DNA from: Thermococcus sp.
Lineage (GTDB): Archaea > Methanobacteriota_B > Thermococci > Thermococcales > Thermococcaceae
Direction of reading: 5' to 3'
Length of the DNA stretch: 64,000 nucleotides
Assembly (NCBI RefSeq): GCF_015521605.1
Contig: NZ_WANV01000033.1
Span: 1 to 64,000, forward strand
The notes below the pieces were generated by a model that saw only the letters and a program-made list of their open reading frames with translations, had not been told where the DNA came from and searched no databases. Of the stretch, positions 5,306 to 34,436 are shown in pieces; positions within the stretch are counted from its first letter, which is position 1; every line of letters starts with the position of its first letter. Both the position numbers and the translations under genes were made by a program.

Positions 5306-6496
5306 ATGGCAAGGGTAATCGTTGACGCCCAGGCTGCGAGGGCAATAGGAAAGGGTGCGATGATAGTCTTCAAGAAGGGTGTTGTGAGAACGGAGGGCGA
5401 GTTTGAGCCGGGGGATGTAGTTGAGGTCTACACACGGGGCGGCAAGTTCCTTGGAAAGGGCTTCGTCAACCCCAACTCCAACATCATGATCAGGCTGGTG
5501 ACCAAGGATCGCGAGACGGAGATAAACAAGGAACTCTTCCGTGAGAGAATCAGGAGGGCCAACGAGTACCGCAAGAGGGTTCTCGGCTACGATAAGGCTT
5601 ACCGCATGGTATACGGCGAGGCGGACTACCTTCCCGGCCTTATAGTTGACCGCTTCAACGAGATAGCCTCCATCCAGATTTCAAGCATAGGGATGGAGAA
5701 GTTCAAACTCGACCTTGCGGAGGCAATAATGGATGCCGAGCCGGAAATCGAGACGGTCTTCGAGAAGAACACCGGCCGCTCAAGGAGGAGGGAAGGTCTG
5801 CCCGAGATAGAGCGCGTCCTCCTCGGCAAGGAGAAGTACCGGACGGTAATCAAAGAGGGCAAAGCCAGGTTCATCGTGGACATGCGCGGCCAGAAGACGG
5901 GCTTCTTCCTCGACCAGAGAGAGAACCGCATTGCACTGGAGAAGTACGTCAAGCCGGGGATGCGCGTTCTGGACGTCTTTACCTACACGGGCGGCTTCGC
6001 GATACACGCGGCCGTTGCCGGCGCTGACGAGGTTGTGGCGGTGGACAAGTCTCCCTGGGCCATCAACATGGTCAAGGAGAACGCCAAGCTCAACGGCGTC
6101 GAGGATAGGATGAAGTACGTCGTTGGGAGCGCCTTCCCGATCATGGAGGAGATGATAAAGCGCGGTGAAAAGTTCGACATAGTTATCCTCGATCCCCCCG
6201 CCTTCGTCCAGCACGAGAAGGACCTCAAGAGGGGGCTTCGCGCTTACTTCAACGTGAACTACGCCGGCTTACAGCTGGTGAAGGAGGGCGGAATACTCGT
6301 GACAGCTTCCTGCTCCCAGCACGTGGACATGCAGGCCTTCAAGGACATGGTTATTGCAGCGGCAGCCAAGGCCGGCAAGTTCCTCAAGCTCCTTGAGCCC
6401 TACAGGACGCAGGCCCCAGATCACCCGATACTGATGGCCTCGAAGGACACGGAGTATCTCAAGGCCCTCTTCCTCTACGTTGAGGATATGAAATGA
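5306..6496 (+). CDS. RlmI-like class I rRNA cytosine-C5 methyltransferase
   Basis: A 396-residue SAM-dependent RNA methyltransferase of the RlmI/PH1915 type. Residues 1-75 form a PUA RNA-binding domain (PGDVVEVYTRGGKFLGKGFV). Then come the EEHEE-like middle region and a Rossmann domain with motif I VLDVFTYTGG, acidic motif VVAVDKSP, motif IV VILDPPAF and the catalytic-cysteine motif VTASCSQHV. RlmI homologues make m5C in 23S rRNA. The start follows GGTGGTGAG. A C/D box guide RNA begins directly after the stop and may share the transcript. Confidence 0.92.
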   Translation: MARVIVDAQAARAIGKGAMIVFKKGVVRTEGEFEPGDVVEVYTRGGKFLGKGFVNPNSNIMIRLVTKDRETEINKELFRERIRRANEYRKRVLGYDKAYRMVYGEADYLPGLIVDRFNEIASIQISSIGMEKFKLDLAEAIMDAEPEIETVFEKNTGRSRRREGLPEIERVLLGKEKYRTVIKEGKARFIVDMRGQKTGFFLDQRENRIALEKYVKPGMRVLDVFTYTGGFAIHAAVAGADEVVAVDKSPWAINMVKENAKLNGVEDRMKYVVGSAFPIMEEMIKRGEKFDIVILDPPAFVQHEKDLKRGLRAYFNVNYAGLQLVKEGGILVTASCSQHVDMQAFKDMVIAAAAKAGKFLKLLEPYRTQAPDHPILMASKDTEYLKALFLYVEDMK

Positions 6497-6499
6497 TTG

Positions 6500-6572
6500 A
6501 GCGGGGACGATGAGGAGAAAGCACCTCCCCTGAGACCGGCGTGAATGCTGAGACGCCCACGGTCTGAGTCCC
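6500..6572 (+). ncRNA. C/D box guide sRNA (2'-O-methylation), predicted
   Basis: All four boxes are in order: C box ATGAGGA (6510-6516), D' box CTGA (6530-6533), C' box ATGCTGA (6545-6551) and D box CTGA (6564-6567). The C and C' boxes each differ from RTGATGA at one base. The C-D' spacer is 13 nt and the C'-D spacer 12 nt, as usual in archaea. The ends pair: GGGAC before C with GTCCC after D, extended by ATTGA with TCAAT around a short bulge. A T6 run follows at 6601. The D guide (GACGCCCACGGT) predicts methylation of the U in ACCGUGGGCGUC; the D' guide (GCACCTCCC) predicts the fifth base of GGGAGGUGC. I could not assign the targets. Confidence 0.75.
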
Positions 6573-6600
6573 TCAATTGGTCGCTTTACCACCGAAACTC

Positions 6601-6606
6601 TTTTTT
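6601..6606 (+). terminator. T-run terminator behind the C/D sRNA
   Basis: Six consecutive T (followed by ATTT) on the plus strand, about 30 bases after the sRNA 3' stem. Archaeal transcription commonly ends at such runs. Confidence 0.5.
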
Positions 6607-6660
6607 ATTTGGTTGTTCAAACGACCAAAATCGCAGAAGTTATGGTTGTTACAACGACTA

Positions 6661-7404
6661 TTACAGCCTGAGTATCAAACTGTGCCTCCACCTGGTTCCG
6701 GCCTTGAACCTGATGTCCCTGACTGAGTAGCCTAACTCTTCTCCCTTTTCCGTTATGGCTTTAATCAGGGGCTCCTTGTCGGGGAGGAAAAGGGCGACCT
6801 TTCCTCTGGGGTCCAGATGGTCCAGGGCTTCTTTAATGAGCCTCACAGAGAACCCCTCGCCGTATTCTCCACCCCCAACACCTTCCTTCTCCGTTAGAAC
6901 CCCCTTCGTCGGCCTCTCATAGTAGGGCGGGGCGGAGAAGATAACATCGAACTTCTCCCCCGTGGGGATTACTCCCTTTATTATCCCCCCATCGCTCTTG
7001 ATGAGCCTTACCTTAGCGAGGTTCCCCTCAACGTTCCTCATCGCGTACTCGAAGAACTCATCGTCGAGCTCTGTCGCGGTAACGTCACAGTTGAATATTT
7101 TCGCCGCCATGAGGGCCATTAAAGCCGTGTGCCCCGTCCCTATCTCCAGAACCCTCTCTCCCCCGCGCAGGAATGTCTTGAGGAAGAGGTAGCGCGAAAC
7201 CGGGGTCGTGACGAGCCCCCTCGGGTGATACTCTATATCGAGACCGAAGACCGCTTTAGCAATCGCCCTGTTGTAGAGTATCCTCGCTTCCCTGTTCGAG
7301 AAGTCAAGCCTTCCGCGTTCGTCGAGATATTTCTCCAGCTCCGGAAACAGCTTCACTGCCTCTTTTACCGGCAGTCCGAGCTTTCCGTCCTTCCAGGTGG
7401 GCAT
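6661..7404 (-). CDS. RlmF/METTL16-like RNA methyltransferase
   Basis: A 247-residue SAM-dependent methyltransferase. Motif I is VLEIGTGHTALMAL (about residue 85), the acidic residue is in TATELDDEF, and the catalytic motif is SAPPYYERP, the (N/S/D)PPY/F signature of adenine-N6 methyltransferases. The overall plan fits the RlmF/METTL16 family (DUF890); archaeal substrates are not settled. There is no clear ribosome site before the ATG at 7404, only a pyrimidine-rich stretch. The gene lies 37 bases behind the M20 peptidase gene on the same strand and is probably the last gene of that operon. Confidence 0.85.
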   Translation of the reverse strand: MPTWKDGKLGLPVKEAVKLFPELEKYLDERGRLDFSNREARILYNRAIAKAVFGLDIEYHPRGLVTTPVSRYLFLKTFLRGGERVLEIGTGHTALMALMAAKIFNCDVTATELDDEFFEYAMRNVEGNLAKVRLIKSDGGIIKGVIPTGEKFDVIFSAPPYYERPTKGVLTEKEGVGGGEYGEGFSVRLIKEALDHLDPRGKVALFLPDKEPLIKAITEKGEELGYSVRDIRFKAGTRWRHSLILRL

Positions 7405-27935: not shown

Positions 27936-29021
27936 ATGGTTCGGGAGACGCCTTACTTTTCCTACGCCGTGGGAGAGCTTCCCCGGGGCTGCCAGCTCTG
28001 CGTTAGGGGTGAGAAGCTTGTCCTCTTCACAACCGGGGCATGCCCGAGGGACTGCTTCTACTGCCCGCTGAGCGAGACGCGGAGGGGGGACGTTGTCTAC
28101 GCCAACGAGAGACCGGTGAGAAGCCTTGATGACGTCAGTGAGGAAGCCCTCCTGATGGAGGCGAAGGGTGCCGGCGTTACCGGCGGCGACCCGCTGGCGA
28201 GGCTCGACAGGACGGTTGAGTATATCCGCTCCCTGAAGGAGGCCTTTGGCGAGGACTTTCACGTCCACCTCTACACCACCGGCGCCCTGGCGACCAAAAA
28301 GAACCTCGAAAAGCTCTACGATGCCGGTCTGGATGAGATACGCTTCCACCCCGACCTGTTCAACCCGAACTCGAAGCTCTTCAAAGTCGAAATCGAGAAC
28401 ATAAAGAACGCCTTCGACTTCGACTGGGACGTGGGCGGCGAGATCCCCTCGGTTCCAGGGCAGTTCGAGAGGATGAGGTGGTACGCGGAGTTCCTCGACA
28501 ACCTCGGGGCGAAGTTCCTCAACGTGAACGAGCTTGAGTTCAGCGAGACAAACCTGAGGGCCATTCTCGACAGGGGGTACAGGCCGATAAGCGACGAGAG
28601 CGCCGCAATAAAGGGCTCCCTTGAGCTGGGGCTGAAACTCCTTGAATGGGGCGAGGAGAACACATCGCTGAGCTACCACCTGTGCACTGCCAGGCTGAAG
28701 GATGCGGTCCAGCTCAAGAACAGGCTGAGGAGGATGGCCAAAAACGTGGCCAAGCCATACATGGAGATCACCGAGGACGGGACTCTCCGCTTTGGAATAG
28801 CTGAGTACGAGGATTTAGACGAGCTCTACACCCTCCTCGTGGAGGAGGCCGAGGTTCCCGAGGAGTGGCTGTACGTCAACAGGGCGAAGGGCAGGATAGA
28901 GATGCCGGAGGAAGTCGCGGTCGAGCTGGCGGAGGCGATAGAGGGCGACGTTAGGTTCTTCATCGTCGAGGAGTACCCGACCTTTGACAGGCTTGAGGTC
29001 GAGAGGATTCCACTACCTTGA
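27936..29021 (+). CDS. Radical SAM protein (COG2108-like)
   Basis: A 361-residue radical SAM enzyme. The cluster motif is CPRDCFYC (CX3CX2C, residues ~35-42), preceded by a further cysteine pair in RGCQLC that may bind another metal or cluster. The barrel follows ([20 protein letters not shown] with the GGE-like GGD). It resembles the archaeal family related to pyruvate-formate-lyase activase, whose substrate is unknown as far as I know. The start ATG follows GAGGTGAG. It is monocistronic, convergent with the ATPase gene, and its 3' end lies 40 bases from one copy of the 25-bp repeat. Confidence 0.85.
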
Positions 29022-29060
29022 ATTCTACCCCATTTTCCATAGGTTACCGGTTCTGGGGGC

Positions 29061-29085
29061 GTAAGTAACTTACGGGGGCATAAGT
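29061..29085. repeat. 25-bp direct repeat, 3' copy of the ATPase cassette
   Basis: Identical over 25 bases and in the same orientation as 30148-30172. It consists of GTAAGT, one A, ACTTAC, spacer GGGGGC, then ATAAGT. Another GGGGGC precedes it. It touches the last base of the ATPase stop codon and lies between the ends of two convergent genes, where no promoter is expected. Confidence 0.95.
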
Positions 29086-30137
29086 CAATCGAGGAGGACA
29101 ATCTTTGTCAGGGGATCCATCAGCTGGTAGGTTCCATTCTTTTCCATGATCCACCCCATTTTCCTCAGGTTTTTGAGAAGTTCGTAGAGCCTCGGCTCAG
29201 GGGTTCTCACACCCTTGACTTCCAGATAGTCCCTCAGGAGGCTCCACCTGTTGTAGCCCAGCGCAATTCCCCGGAGTATCTCAACGTAGCGGGGAGTTCT
29301 CCTTTCGAGTTCCCTTAGCTCCCCCAGGATTAACCCCCGGGCCGTTTCGAGGGTTCTATCAAGGGCCCTTTCAAAGTTCCCGCTCCTTAAGTATTCAACG
29401 CCGAAGAGCACAAGCCAGCCAGGTATGCCGTCCAGCGTCTCAACGGCGTGCTCTATGGCCTCTTCCGGGACGTCAGTACCCGCCTCCTTAAACCCCGCCT
29501 TCAGGAATTCCCTTGACACCTCTAGCTCGAAGGGTTCGATGTAAACCTCTCCCGCTGCTCTTCCGTAGAGCGGGCTGTTGTAATCACCAATCCCAAGGAA
29601 GTCGTGGAGAAGGCCGACCTCGGAGCCCGTGAGAATAATCCTGAGGTTCGGAAGGCTATCGTATGCATGGGCAAGGAGGGCTAGGAGCTCTTTTCCACCC
29701 CTGGAGCCGTAAAAACGGAGGTACTGGGCCTCATCAAATGCTATAACAAGCCCCCCGGTCTTCTCACCGATTTCGTTGAGTTCCCTAAAAATGTCCCTCA
29801 GCGAGGCATCCCGGGGTTCCACTCTGAGGAACTTCAGGTTAAGGGAGACCTTAAACCTTGAGATTATCCTCTGTAAGAGGCTTCCCTTCGACTGAAGCTC
29901 CCTGATGAGGTCCTCCTTGGTGATGTGGCCGCTCTCGGCGTAGAGTTCCCTGCAGTCAATCAGTATTCCGGGGTTCTCGTTTAGGTACGCCCTGAGAATC
30001 GAGCTTTTGCCAACCCTTCTGATGCCAAGGAGGAGGCTCAGCGGATACGTCTCAACGCTTTTTTCAAGCTCTTTAAATTCCCTCTCCCTGTCAAAGATAT
30101 CCTCTCTCCTTTGCTTGGGTCTTAGGTCGAACAGCAC
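29085..30137 (-). CDS. Archaeal ATPase (PF01637-type AAA/STAND-like)
   Basis: A 350-residue protein of the expanded archaeal ATPase family. It opens with FDREREFKELEKSV, Walker A is LLGIRRVGKSS, Walker B is GLVIAFDEAQYL and the sensor-like motif is RIILTGSEVGLL. A C-terminal winged-helix part follows (VEILRGIALGYNRWSLLRDYL, NLRKMGWIMEKNGTYQLMDPL). The start is GTG 30137 with GGTGG five bases before it. The cellular role of this family is unclear; many copies lie in variable regions. The gene is exactly bounded by two 25-bp repeats; the upstream one covers its start site, which suggests autoregulation. Confidence 0.88.
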   Translation of the reverse strand: MLFDLRPKQRREDIFDREREFKELEKSVETYPLSLLLGIRRVGKSSILRAYLNENPGILIDCRELYAESGHITKEDLIRELQSKGSLLQRIISRFKVSLNLKFLRVEPRDASLRDIFRELNEIGEKTGGLVIAFDEAQYLRFYGSRGGKELLALLAHAYDSLPNLRIILTGSEVGLLHDFLGIGDYNSPLYGRAAGEVYIEPFELEVSREFLKAGFKEAGTDVPEEAIEHAVETLDGIPGWLVLFGVEYLRSGNFERALDRTLETARGLILGELRELERRTPRYVEILRGIALGYNRWSLLRDYLEVKGVRTPEPRLYELLKNLRKMGWIMEKNGTYQLMDPLTKIVLLD

Positions 30138-30172
30138 TTACGCCACCGTAAGTAACTTACGGGGGCATAAGT
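30136..30172. repeat. 25-bp direct repeat, 5' copy, with an extra half-site
   Basis: Half-sites alternate with fixed spacing: ACTTAC (30136-30141), six bases, GTAAGT (30148-30153), one base, ACTTAC (30155-30160), six bases, ATAAGT (30167-30172). The 25 bases from 30148 are identical to the copy at 29061-29085. This copy sits between the TATA box and the GTG start of the ATPase gene, the place for an operator. Confidence 0.95.
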
Positions 30173-30178
30173 TATAAG
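30171..30178 (-). promoter_or_regulatory. TATA box of the archaeal ATPase gene
   Basis: CTTATAAC on the minus strand directly abutting the 25-bp repeat; the expected start site (about 30149) lies inside the repeat. Confidence 0.6.
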
Positions 30179-30219
30179 GGTTTCGAAAAAATTATTTGCC
30201 TTTGGGGATATTAACGGCC

Positions 30220-30996
30220 ATGCGGGTCTTCATCAGGGATTACCTCATCCCTTGGCTGTTGGTTATCATCTTCTGGGTTGCCATCTGGGTTTTTGTTCCT
30301 GGGAAGGAGAAAAACCTCTCGCTTCCGAACGTCCTTTCGGTTTTCGTTCTACTGCCTATATTTCTCCTCATAGCCCTGTATTTCGTTGGAAGAACCCTTG
30401 AGAACTACGGCTACTCGAGAAGGGACGTTAGAAGACTCCCGGAGATGATCGAGAGAACCCACGGCAGGCTCTACCTCTCCAGGGAGATTTTTGATACCAT
30501 CGCAAATGCACTTATTTTCTGGGGACTGTTTTCTTCGGCCGTTTTGCTGACAGGGAACCCCCTGTGGGGAGTTGTCAACGCCGTCGCGATGTTCGCGCTG
30601 ATATTTTCGTTTTTCGTTCTGCTGGTCTCGATGATAATCTGGGTGGTGGTATTTCCGCACTCCCTCTACCGGATTTTCACAGGTAAAGAACCGCACAGGG
30701 GTCTCCTAGATTTTGTCGTCGAGTACAACCTCGTTCTCACTGTACTTCTCATTGCAGTCAGGCTCATCGCGCTTCACGTTGGCGATGTTTCGGCCCCCCA
30801 CTACATCATGGAGCTAATCGCCTTCGGAAGAAACGACCGCGTTGTGAATGCTCTTTTCGAGCTTTCGGCGCTGAACTTCCTCTTTGGGCTGGTCGGCTTT
30901 TACGGGCCAAGGAGAATCGGAAATGCGACGGCCTTAATCCTGGCTCTTATCGTCTCCTGCCAGCTGTGGGTTGCCTGGGGTTTGCTGTTTGGTTGA
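30220..30996 (+). CDS. Polytopic membrane protein, unknown
   Basis: A 258-residue protein with about seven hydrophobic segments (for example IPWLLVIIFWVAIWVFV, VLSVFVLLPIFLLIALYFV, NAVAMFALIFSFFVLLVSMI) and a cytosolic-looking loop RRDVRRLPEMIERTHGRLYL. I recognise no transporter or enzyme signature. ATG 30220 is the most likely start; the frame opens at 30196, but that TTG lacks a ribosome site. It is divergent from the repeat-bounded ATPase gene, and the two share an 82-base intergenic region. Confidence 0.7.
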   Translation: MRVFIRDYLIPWLLVIIFWVAIWVFVPGKEKNLSLPNVLSVFVLLPIFLLIALYFVGRTLENYGYSRRDVRRLPEMIERTHGRLYLSREIFDTIANALIFWGLFSSAVLLTGNPLWGVVNAVAMFALIFSFFVLLVSMIIWVVVFPHSLYRIFTGKEPHRGLLDFVVEYNLVLTVLLIAVRLIALHVGDVSAPHYIMELIAFGRNDRVVNALFELSALNFLFGLVGFYGPRRIGNATALILALIVSCQLWVAWGLLFG

Positions 30997-31033: not shown

Positions 31034-31216
31034 ATGGATGGAGGTAGAAAATATGCTCCAAAGAGAGCTGGCAATCTTCACGTGCTTATGATGGCCTTTG
31101 GAACAATGAGCGAAGAGGAAGTCGAGAGGCTTAAGAAGGAGCTCAAGGAAGTCGAAGACTGGATAAACTCTTGGGCACCCACTCAATTGGAGAATTCAAG
31201 AGAAGACGAAGAATGA
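31034..31216 (+). CDS. Possible small acidic protein (or gene remnant)
   Basis: An open frame of 60 codons whose second half ([20 protein letters not shown]) has the codon pattern and charged helix expected of a real protein, while the first half ([18 protein letters not shown]) does not look native. The strong GGAGGT just inside the frame points to another ATG (31054) in a different frame that stops after 12 codons, as if a frameshift had split an older gene. Starts at 31088 or 31106 are also possible. Unknown function, low certainty. Confidence 0.4.
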
Positions 31217-31238: not shown

Positions 31239-34200
31239 TCAAACCCTCTCAATCCCTATCTTCGCCTGAACTTCGGGCCACTCGACGACGTAGCCTTTTG
31301 CTTCTCCAAAGACTACCTCGGTCGCCCTCGCCTCCTTCATGATGTAGTCGAGGTTCTCCTGGAGGAGCTCGCGGTTCTCGTCGGTGGTCTCTATGGTGAC
31401 GACTATTCTGTCGTTGACGTCGAGGTCGAGCCTCTTGCGCATCTCCTGTATCCTGCGGACGAACTCCCTGGCGAGTCCCTCCGCGAGGAGCTCCCTCGTG
31501 AGTGTCTTGTCCACGAAGACCCTTCCGCCCTCAAAGTCCTCTGCAACGAAGAAGTCCGGCAGCTTCTCCTCTATGCTCAGGTGCTCCCTGGTAAGGTGGA
31601 AGGTCTTGCCCTCGATTTCAACGTCCATCTCTCCAGCCTCGTAGAGCTCCCTTCCGTTCTCGTTTATCCACGCTATGACGAGCTTTGCATCTCCCTTGAA
31701 CTCCGGCCCGACCTTGGCGAAGTTGGGCTTTATGATAAGCTCGCGCTCGACCCTGCCAACGACGACCTCTTTGGCGTTGAGCTGGTCCTTAAGGAGCCTG
31801 TTGAGCCTCTCGACGGCCTTCGCAACGGTTTCGTCCTCCGTCTCTATGATTATCCTCCTGACCGGGTAGCGGAGCTTTATCTTCGCCCTCTGCCTCGCTG
31901 AAGAGCCGGCCTCGACGATCCTCCTGACGTACTCCATCTCCCTCTCAAGCTCCTCGTCCCTCGCCCCTTCCTCGGCCTCCGGCCAGTCGAGCATGTGGAC
32001 GCTCTCCACACCGACGAAGGGCCTGAGCATGTTCTGGTATATCTCCTCCGCTATGTAGGGCGTAAACGGCGCCATGAGCCTGAGTAGCACATCGAAGACC
32101 TTCCAGACGGTGTAGTATGCCGCCAGCTTGTCGGGGTCGTTGCCCTCGACCCACATGCGCTTCCTGATGAGCCTCACGTACCACCTGCTGAGATCCTCAA
32201 CGACAAAGTGGTATATCGCCCTGGTGGCTCTCGTGAGCCTGAAGGTCTCCACGCCCTCAGTGACGTCGCCTATCAGGCCGTTGACCCTGCTGAGTATCCA
32301 GCGGTCTTCTTCTCTGAAGGGAATCTCCTCCGGGTTGAGCTTGGTCGGATCGAAGCTGTCGAGGCTCATGTAGGTGGCACTGAGAACGTAGACGTTCCAG
32401 AGTATGTTGAGCATGCGCTTGACCTGTGCCAGTCCCTTCCAGCTGAAGCGGAGGTTCTCCCACGGGTTGGTGGCCCAGAGCATGTAGAACCTGAAGGGGT
32501 CTCTGCCCTCCTTCTGGACGACCTCCTCCGGGCGGATGATGTTGCCGAGGCTCTTGCTCATCTTGTCGCCCTTTTCATCGAGGACGTAGCCGTGCATGGC
32601 GACCTTTCTATAGGGAACGGTGTCAAAGGCTATAACGCTTGCAGCCTGCTGGGAGTAGAACCACTTGGTTACCTGGTCTTCACCCTCGACGATGAAGTCA
32701 GCCGGCCAGAGCTTCTCGAAAAGCTCCTTGTTCCTCGGGTAGTCCAGCGAAGCCCAGCTCGCTATTCCGCTGTCGAACCACACATCAACGACGTCCTTGA
32801 CGCGGCGCATCTCCTTGCCGTTGACCTTTATTATGAAGGCATCCACGTAGGGCCTGTGCAGGTCCTCCGGGCCGAGCTTCTCCTCTATGGCCTTGAGCTT
32901 CTCCTCGTAGCTCTCCGGGAGCTCTATTCTCTCGCCGTTAACCTCTATCGCGACGCTGAGCTCCACCAGCTCCTTGAACGAGCCGACGACGTATATCTCG
33001 CCGTCCTCGGCCTGCCATATCGGGAGCGGGATTCCCCAGTAGCGCTGCCTGCTTATGACCCAGTCGCCGCTGTTCATGACGCCGTTGTCGTAGCGCACTT
33101 TGACCCAGTCCGGGTACCAGGTGACCTTCTCGTCGTTCTCCTTGATTATCTTGTCCTTGACCTTGCTGACCTTGAGGAACCACTGGTCTGTGGCTCTAAA
33201 TATGAGCGGGGTCTTACAGCGCCAGCAGTGCGGGTACTTGTGCTCTATAGTCCCGGCCTTCACGAGGTAGTCCTTGGCTCTGAGGTGCTCTATTATCTCC
33301 TTGTCGGCGTCCTTGACGTAGGTTCCCTTCCAGTAGCCCTCGGTGTAGCGTCCCTCGTCGTCAACCGGGCTGTAAACCGGCAGACCGTACTGCCTTCCGA
33401 CCTCGTAGTCCTCCTCACCGTGGCCAGGAGCGGTGTGAACCAGGCCTGTACCGTCGCCGAGGGTTACGTGCTCACCGAGGATAACCCTGTGGGCCCACTC
33501 GTACTTCTCGCGGAACTCCTTTTGGGTCGGATACTCGTCCATGAGTACGTGCACGTAGCGGAGTCCCTCAAGCTCCTCGCCCTTGAACTCTTCGACTATC
33601 TCGCCCCTGACGCCGGCTTCGCTCAGAACCCTCTCGACGAGGGCCTTCGCTATTATCCAGTACTCCTCCCCAGAGTCTGTCTCGACCCTGACCTTGGCGT
33701 AGTCGTACTCCGGGTGAACTGTAACCGCTAAGTTGGCCGGGAGCGTCCAGGGGGTAGTCGTCCAGATGAGAAGGTACTCGTTCTCCTTGCCCTCTATCGG
33801 GAACTTGACGTATATGCTCGGGTCCTCCCTTATCTTGTACTCGCCGCGGACCTCGTGTTCTGCTAAAGCCGTCTCACAGCGCGGGCACCAGTGCAAAACC
33901 CTCTTGTCCTTCTCCAAAAGCCCCTTTTCCCAGGCCTTCTTAAGCGTGAACCAGCCTGATTCGATGTACTCGTTCTTTATGGTCATGTAAGGGTTGTCCC
34001 AGTCCATCCAGACGCCGAGCATCTTGAACTGCTCGGTCATTATCTTGAGGTTGTTGAGGGCGAACTCCTTGCACTTCCTTATGAACTCATCAACGCCTAT
34101 CTCGGTCTCTATGTCCTTCTTGACCTTGAGCCCAAGTGCCTGCTCGACCTTCACCTCTATCGGGAGGCCGTGCATGTCGAAGCCCGGCTGCCTGCGCACG

Positions 34201-34436
34201 TCGTAGCCCTGCATGGTTCTGAAGCGTATCACCATGTCCTTGATTATCTTGTTCCACGCCGTTCCGAGGTGTATGGCACCGCTGACGTAGGGCGGCCCGT
34301 CGAGGAAGTAGTACTTCGGGCCATTTGACCTGCTTTCCTTCACCTTCTCATAGGTGTTGTTCTCCTTCCAAAAGCGCTCGACCTTTTCCTCAAGCTTCCC
34401 TGGGTTGTACTCCCTAAACTCCGGTTCCTTTATCAT
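31239..34436 (-). CDS. ileS: Isoleucyl-tRNA synthetase
   Basis: A 1065-residue class Ia synthetase. The HIGH motif appears as GAIHLGTAWN (about residue 55), the KMSKS loop as DKMSKSLGN, and the CP1 editing domain between them contains the Trp-rich WTTTPWTLPAN. The anticodon-binding and C-terminal domains follow; CWRCKTP in the editing region contains a short Cys pair. Full length for an archaeal/eukaryotic-type IleRS. The ATG follows GGAGGG. It has a long leader of about 110 bases with a tiny upstream frame (see findings). Confidence 0.97.
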   Translation of the reverse strand: MIKEPEFREYNPGKLEEKVERFWKENNTYEKVKESRSNGPKYYFLDGPPYVSGAIHLGTAWNKIIKDMVIRFRTMQGYDVRRQPGFDMHGLPIEVKVEQALGLKVKKDIETEIGVDEFIRKCKEFALNNLKIMTEQFKMLGVWMDWDNPYMTIKNEYIESGWFTLKKAWEKGLLEKDKRVLHWCPRCETALAEHEVRGEYKIREDPSIYVKFPIEGKENEYLLIWTTTPWTLPANLAVTVHPEYDYAKVRVETDSGEEYWIIAKALVERVLSEAGVRGEIVEEFKGEELEGLRYVHVLMDEYPTQKEFREKYEWAHRVILGEHVTLGDGTGLVHTAPGHGEEDYEVGRQYGLPVYSPVDDEGRYTEGYWKGTYVKDADKEIIEHLRAKDYLVKAGTIEHKYPHCWRCKTPLIFRATDQWFLKVSKVKDKIIKENDEKVTWYPDWVKVRYDNGVMNSGDWVISRQRYWGIPLPIWQAEDGEIYVVGSFKELVELSVAIEVNGERIELPESYEEKLKAIEEKLGPEDLHRPYVDAFIIKVNGKEMRRVKDVVDVWFDSGIASWASLDYPRNKELFEKLWPADFIVEGEDQVTKWFYSQQAASVIAFDTVPYRKVAMHGYVLDEKGDKMSKSLGNIIRPEEVVQKEGRDPFRFYMLWATNPWENLRFSWKGLAQVKRMLNILWNVYVLSATYMSLDSFDPTKLNPEEIPFREEDRWILSRVNGLIGDVTEGVETFRLTRATRAIYHFVVEDLSRWYVRLIRKRMWVEGNDPDKLAAYYTVWKVFDVLLRLMAPFTPYIAEEIYQNMLRPFVGVESVHMLDWPEAEEGARDEELEREMEYVRRIVEAGSSARQRAKIKLRYPVRRIIIETEDETVAKAVERLNRLLKDQLNAKEVVVGRVERELIIKPNFAKVGPEFKGDAKLVIAWINENGRELYEAGEMDVEIEGKTFHLTREHLSIEEKLPDFFVAEDFEGGRVFVDKTLTRELLAEGLAREFVRRIQEMRKRLDLDVNDRIVVTIETTDENRELLQENLDYIMKEARATEVVFGEAKGYVVEWPEVQAKIGIERV

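Follow-up and report, generated by a model that had tools for sequence, protein, structure and literature searches.

The PF01637 ATPases are numerous and largely uncharacterised archaeal genes, for which structures have been solved while the function is little known. Several described systems are comparable in part with the unit considered here. Integron cassettes usually contain one gene flanked by direct copies of a site, with the promoter located outside and with precise empty sites, and in the formation of solo LTRs the flanking direct repeats, which carry regulatory sequence, recombine and leave one copy. A precedent for an ATPase acting as a regulator is IniR, the mycobacterial STAND-type ATPase regulator, which joins an AAA+ ATPase to a promoter-acting DNA-binding domain and whose ATPase domain was likened by its authors to SSO1545 (PMC5760070). 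This 818-aa protein has a MalT-like domain in its middle and controls another operon, and flanking repeats are not described for it (PMC5760070). In the open-access literature no cognate sites, autoregulatory palindromes, repeats, or cassette behaviour were found for the PF01637 family.

The window analysed here is a 64,000-nucleotide stretch of a Thermococcus sp. genome (contig NZ_WANV01000033.1), in which a PF01637 ATPase gene, designated as type A, lies between two copies of a 25-bp site. The unit resembles integron cassettes in having one site when empty and two direct copies when occupied, but it possesses no integrase, no platform, and no arrays, and it lacks the encoded recombinase that is the defining feature of both integron cassettes and transposons; unlike the integron site, its site is an operator-like promoter element touching the start and stop codons. 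Similarly to solo-LTR formation, regulatory repeats would recombine to a solo copy; however, the unit has no reverse transcriptase and the repeats are only 15–42 bp long. In comparison with IniR, which controls another operon, the window ATPase has a site at its own promoter.

These features are probably best explained by a self-regulating DNA-binding ATPase residing in a cassette that is lost by recombination between its operator copies and regained by gene transfer. The ATPases would form a family of autoregulated DNA-binding AAA+ proteins, each having a palindrome of its own as recognition site; the protein presumably binds this palindrome, between the TATA and the start, via the C-terminal winged helix and represses or tunes its own transcription. 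With a second site copy at the stop codon, the gene would become a one-gene cassette bounded by direct repeats. Recombination between the copies, proposed from the observed allele pairs, would remove the gene and one repeat precisely and leave a solo site, and the gene may return to the same small set of loci by horizontal transfer, as suggested by the observed tree conflict. Recombination of the 15–42-bp repeats is most likely carried out by the general repair or replication apparatus of the host and not by a cassette enzyme. With this explanation each PF01637 subfamily gains a candidate cognate DNA site and a testable autoregulator role, and the patchy ATPase distribution would be accounted for by precise repeat-mediated loss and horizontal regain.

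Anatomy of the window locus

Table 1. Features of the ATPase locus, in window coordinates.
Feature	Position	Strand	Basis
3′ (downstream) copy of the 25-bp site	29061..29085	+	aligned with empty and occupied relatives
5′ (upstream) copy of the 25-bp site	30148..30172	+	
Type-A archaeal ATPase gene, 350 aa, GTG start	29085..30137	-	ORF list, Pfam, PDB match
5′ operator-like array, four half-sites ACTTAC/GTAAGT, 6-1-6 spacing, running into the GTG	30136..30172	.	
BRE/TATA-like ATPase promoter TTTCGAAACCCTTATAA, outside the repeat	30172..30188	-	
Radical-SAM protein gene (rSAM), conserved left neighbour of the site	27936..29021	+	
Membrane-like protein gene (MEMB), function unassigned, divergent from the ATPase	30196..30996	+	
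ileS, conserved right edge of the variable interval	31239..34436	-	

As the earlier note had described, the ATPase gene has at both ends a copy of the same 25-mer, GTAAGTAACTTACGGGGGCATAAGT, the two copies being identical in 25/25 positions and in direct orientation, with a repeat-to-repeat distance of 1,087 bp; shuffled sequence gave 0 matches. The ATPase is the sole ORF inside this 1,087-bp unit. The 3′ copy shares its last base with the ATPase stop codon (a one-base contact) and is preceded by an outer GGGGGC spacer (29055–29060). Before the 5′ copy there is an extra half-site ACTTAC (30136–30141) overlapping the GTG codon, the order of the 5′ array being ACTTAC-GCCACC-GTAAGT-A-ACTTAC-GGGGGC-ATAAGT. 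As a small correction, the 3′ copy has three half-sites and the preceding GGGGGC spacer, not four half-sites as in the 5′ array. The same array layout with other half-sites is present in ATPase paralogues. The former assignment of the 5′ copy as an autoregulatory operator agrees with its placement between the TATA and the start, and its equivalents are placed likewise in every subfamily examined. The gene-proximal dyad spacer (30142–30147) is G-rich on the coding strand, as in nearly all subfamilies, with the variants GGTGGC, GGTGGG, GGGGGTG, and GGGGGC at the expected Shine-Dalgarno position, so that the operator and the ribosome site may coincide.

The MEMB gene, whose likely true start is the ATG at 30220, had no Pfam match. 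This gene is the divergent or downstream neighbour of the 25-bp site in the window and in the loci L095, L097, and L119, and in most relatives with MEMB the site is upstream of the MEMB gene's own TATA-like stretch; in genome G025 (L097) the site and the MEMB gene are duplicated, one on each side of the ATPase. Between MEMB and ileS (31034–31216) a 60-aa remnant-like VapB antitoxin homologue was noted, whose match is confined to the C-terminal half of PF02697.

The window ATPase was matched by PF01637 (ATPase_2) at residues 15–243 (2.3e-23; 83.6 bits, cut-off 33.2) and by the MCM_C-like winged helix PF21100 at residues 279–337 (4e-10), thus passing the family cut-off and carrying a winged helix as in the solved relatives. 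In phmmer comparison residues 1–348 matched PDB 2QEN, a Walker-type ATPase (E 2.2e-167), and 2FNA (SSO1545) was a more distant homologue (3.7e-54), the likeness to these structures being full-length homology over the ATPase and the winged helix. No recombinase domain was found by Pfam in the window ATPase or in the neighbours tested by Pfam, the transposase domain was likewise absent from the ATPase, and the unit ends are direct, not inverted, repeats. Comparison with defence families gave weak matches to the candidate families PDC-S27 (9.8e-9) and PDC-S01. When winged helices were compared across subfamilies, a simple residue code for site choice was not found: types A and B have the common half-site GTAAGT, yet their C-terminal domain identity is 37%.

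Occupied and empty alleles

In the scan of the window's genome (2.03 Mb, 42 contigs), which the earlier note had proposed, the exact 25-mer was confined to the window pair, and the only other site with ≤3 mismatches (C39:53729–53753) was located directly upstream of another PF01637 ATPase, which also has a second site copy at its end. Among the 16 PF01637 matches of this genome flanking repeats were found in the A and B types only. The site pattern was present in 61/94 family genomes, with essentially 0 matches of the reversed-pattern control in the 94 genomes, and in the loci read the matches are situated 0–2 bases from ATPase starts, at stops, or alone. In non-Thermococcales relatives (L204, L206–L208, L211, L213, L214, L226) flanking repeats were not above shuffles. 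Housekeeping genes are found close to the cassette places; three of these encode aminoacyl-tRNA synthetases, namely, ileS and valS for type A and argS (probably, by eye) for E1, and type C is close to a gene resembling by eye that of ribosomal protein L3.

Two possibilities were named earlier as fatal to a cassette. A pair of copies fixed in all genomes was rejected by single-site ATPase-free alleles, and a repeat scattered over many unrelated sites was rejected because the A/B, C, and F sites followed adjoin family ATPases or mostly orthologous solo positions.

In type A, where 60 loci were read, the predicted ATPase-free orthologous locus with a single copy was found many times at ileS and again at valS. 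The ileS locus (from rSAM to ileS) includes 19 alleles with one site and without ATPase; in these, the sequence to the left of the site matches that to the left of the 3′ copy, and the sequence to the right matches that to the right of the 5′ copy. Two-site alleles were identified in the window, G050, G055, G086, and G092, as well as in G059, whose 3′ copy carries a one-base insertion; in G022, G025, and G062 the two-site allele is larger and encloses the MEMB gene as well. Alleles with the 5′ copy only are present too, the ATPase being intact in G023, G040, G043, and G070. At the second type-A locus, identified as valS by its NCBIfam name, single-site alleles (L125/L126/L128) stand against two-site alleles (L129/L133/L092).

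The ATPase TATAA, which is outside the repeat, is intact at ileS in 19/20 occupied versus 1/19 empty type-A alleles (Fisher p 5.8e-9), and the sole occupied allele without it belongs to G059, whose ATPase carries internal stop codons. The empty alleles contain mostly one- or two-base variants of the ATPase TATA, and such a decayed box is read from the sequence as a promoter relic, hence as a sign of earlier occupancy. At the empty type-F site of G013 the ATPase TATA is intact, which points to a very recent loss. The assumption that all solo sites are pre-insertion sites was dropped, since decayed ATPase TATA boxes persist beside solo sites and the box is intact in G013.

Among the 17 readable solo ileS alleles, the inner spacer GCCACC that marks the 5′ operator is absent throughout and the outer spacer of the 3′ copy is present in most; the valS solos have the locus's own outer spacer GGTACC. 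Solo spacers of the 3′-copy type at ileS and valS are expected from a crossover inside the 13-bp core, although a pre-insertion site would give the same pattern. Identity to the consensus was found in 5/18 solo sites versus 11/17 occupied 5′ copies, while the conservation of solo sites (0.92) is far above that of the flanks (0.73 and 0.59), which suggests that the losses are mostly recent or that solo sites retain some function. Solo sites were also found in genomes without detectable family ATPase (G002, G041), and their better preservation even there is not explained by old unused relics, which weighs against the preferred explanation.

Probable horizontal history of the window ATPase

The earlier note left it open whether the cassette had been inserted or lost. 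By comparison of the alleles the clearest empty/occupied cases look like precise losses, while the window copy itself appears to have been acquired horizontally. In the ATPase tree the window gene is grouped with G050, G055, G059, and G008 (another genus) with moderate support, while in the IleS tree the closest relatives of the host are G037, G038, and G014, all with empty alleles. A tree constrained to keep the window ATPase among the ATPases of the host relatives was rejected by 144 log units with a p-AU of 1.4e-11, a value that is somewhat optimistic because the constrained group was chosen after the first tree had been seen. This comparison of trees, based on one marker protein (IleS) that itself adjoins the locus and including two half-length rows, places the window ATPase off the host tree, and the gene was therefore probably acquired horizontally. 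At least 7 occupancy changes are needed on the IleS tree.

According to the nearest relatives, the left flank of the window belongs with empty alleles such as that of G016, the right flank with empty G026, and the ATPase with G050/G055, and the MEMB gene beside the ATPase is likewise incongruent. Possibly the whole rSAM-ileS interval was received by homologous exchange and not by site-specific insertion. The valS-locus ATPases form one cluster in the ATPase tree, so that a subtype mostly remains at its own locus; such fidelity would follow from homologous exchange between the conserved genes on the outside, and a site-specific mechanism is not needed. The two loci of type A together with the tree conflict could reflect gain of the cassette at new places, but also exchange by homologous recombination.

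The same observations can be considered in terms of a true mobile cassette, where a circular or linear form consisting of the ATPase and one site integrates site-specifically at the solo site, which thus serves for attachment, the reaction being driven by the ATPase or by a host recombinase recruited by it, loosely like an integron cassette. Such an element would fit the attB/attL/attR-like anatomy seen at several loci and in several subfamilies, the ATPase tree conflict, and the difference of the window ATPase history from both flanks, although the incongruence of the MEMB gene agrees with a larger tract having been exchanged homologously. The ATPase also has a weak PHROG match (E 2.7e-5) to an ATPase of phage DNA transposition; however, IMG/VR contigs, phages, and plasmids contained no exact site copy and no relative, and the unit is without recombinase. 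Moreover, the TATA is outside the unit, yet it is intact in the window and decayed in nearly all empty alleles, so that the state of the window is not accounted for by insertion of the cassette alone, and a mobile cassette in this sense is unlikely. A further extension, in which a single contact, that of each ATPase with its own operator, would control expression as well as promote precise excision and integration at solo sites, is judged quite unlikely; in that case the archaeal ATPases of Thermococcales would be recombinase-less single-gene mobile elements, with solo sites beside housekeeping genes and with sites and proteins diversifying together, and if the ATPase truly promoted recombination, it would represent a minimal mobile gene of a new type.

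Sites of the other subfamilies

In support of the operator role, types A, B, C, D, E1, E2, F, and G all have their own palindrome between the TATA and the start codon. In the window's genome the PF01637 proteins of 350–370 aa at L013, L014, L015, and L017 each have a different palindrome between the TATA and the start.

The cognate second copy at the stop codon is often present in B, C, and F and probably in D, and it is absent from all E1, E2, and G alleles examined. Recurrence of the 3′ copy in these subfamilies and in A, always cognate to the 5′ copy, and the convergent orientation of the ATPase gene and its 3′ neighbour at the ileS and valS loci could be accounted for by a loop, where the ATPase bridges two working operators, looping its own 1.1-kb gene, and the deletions are accidental by-products; in a variant, bridging blocks read-through from the convergent gene, and the proposal as a whole is compatible with the preferred explanation. 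Nevertheless, many intact occupied alleles are without the 3′ copy, both in type A (the four genomes mentioned above) and in all E1, E2, and G alleles examined, which argues that this copy is not generally needed and makes the loop doubtful.

Solo sites were also left by B, C, E1, and F. In type B the single-site L142/G015 is a clean empty allele with flanks matching both sides of occupied alleles; L142 retains the 5′-type inner spacer, which counts against the explanation by loss preferred here. In type C the two-copy alleles of G021, G031, G036, G054, G060, and G070 have a constant 1,121-bp period, the D flank restarts directly past the 3′ copy (L273 versus G032, 94%), and solo sites were found in seven genomes, including the window's own, with flanks that in several of them resume exactly at the end of the occupied allele's second copy. 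The solo type-C site of the window's genome, CTTGCGGAGGTACAAGTAACTTGTGGGGGTGCAAGT (G000:C18:19239–19274; L291, L322), has no type-C ATPase nearby and is another emptied cassette place.

One 5′-type site of type F was found in each of 29 genomes, and the part of these loci that was read comprised eight two-copy alleles and twelve solos. Comparison of G013 (empty) with G017 (two copies), which are sisters in the IleS tree, revealed a clean 1,092-bp indel at the palindrome, corresponding to the gene and one repeat, with flanks almost identical over ~170 bp round the junction; each of the two genomes consists of a single contig, so that collapse of a draft assembly is unlikely. Sister hyperthermophile species offer natural single-gene deletion pairs. 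In E1 nine solo sites were found and all occupied alleles examined are without the 3′ copy, which means that the two-copy intermediate was lost there or that another route exists and likewise counts against the preferred explanation.

Ordinary deletions only, with the operator surviving by chance or serving the neighbour gene, would be another account of the empty alleles. At ileS the site is upstream of the neighbour's promoter, and several untidy empty alleles (L093, L094, L101, L104) keep ATPase remnants, showing that ordinary decay occurs as well. At the same time the exact junctions in several subfamilies, the precise G013/G017 indel, and the solo spacer pattern at ileS and valS, which differs from that of the 5′ operator, make random decay as the sole process very improbable, and loss by recombination between the operator copies remains the preferred explanation. 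In L094 (G021; 5964–7035) an N-terminal remnant of the ATPase is situated behind the 5′ array and an unrelated 255-aa ORF fills the interval, which is decay in place rather than clean removal.

Two further arrangements of sites were observed. At L015 (G000:C41) a type-F-like palindrome, CCTCACCAGTTACTGGTGGGAG, is located ~15 bases past the ATPase stop, while the ATPase's own 5′ palindrome, CCCCATACAGTATGGGG, differs from it; the former is a foreign solo site at the end of another ATPase. Upstream of the E1 ATPase at L328 (G063:C68:14955–15035) there are three to four tandem E1 sites with an exact 19-bp period, which suggests cooperative or filament-like binding.
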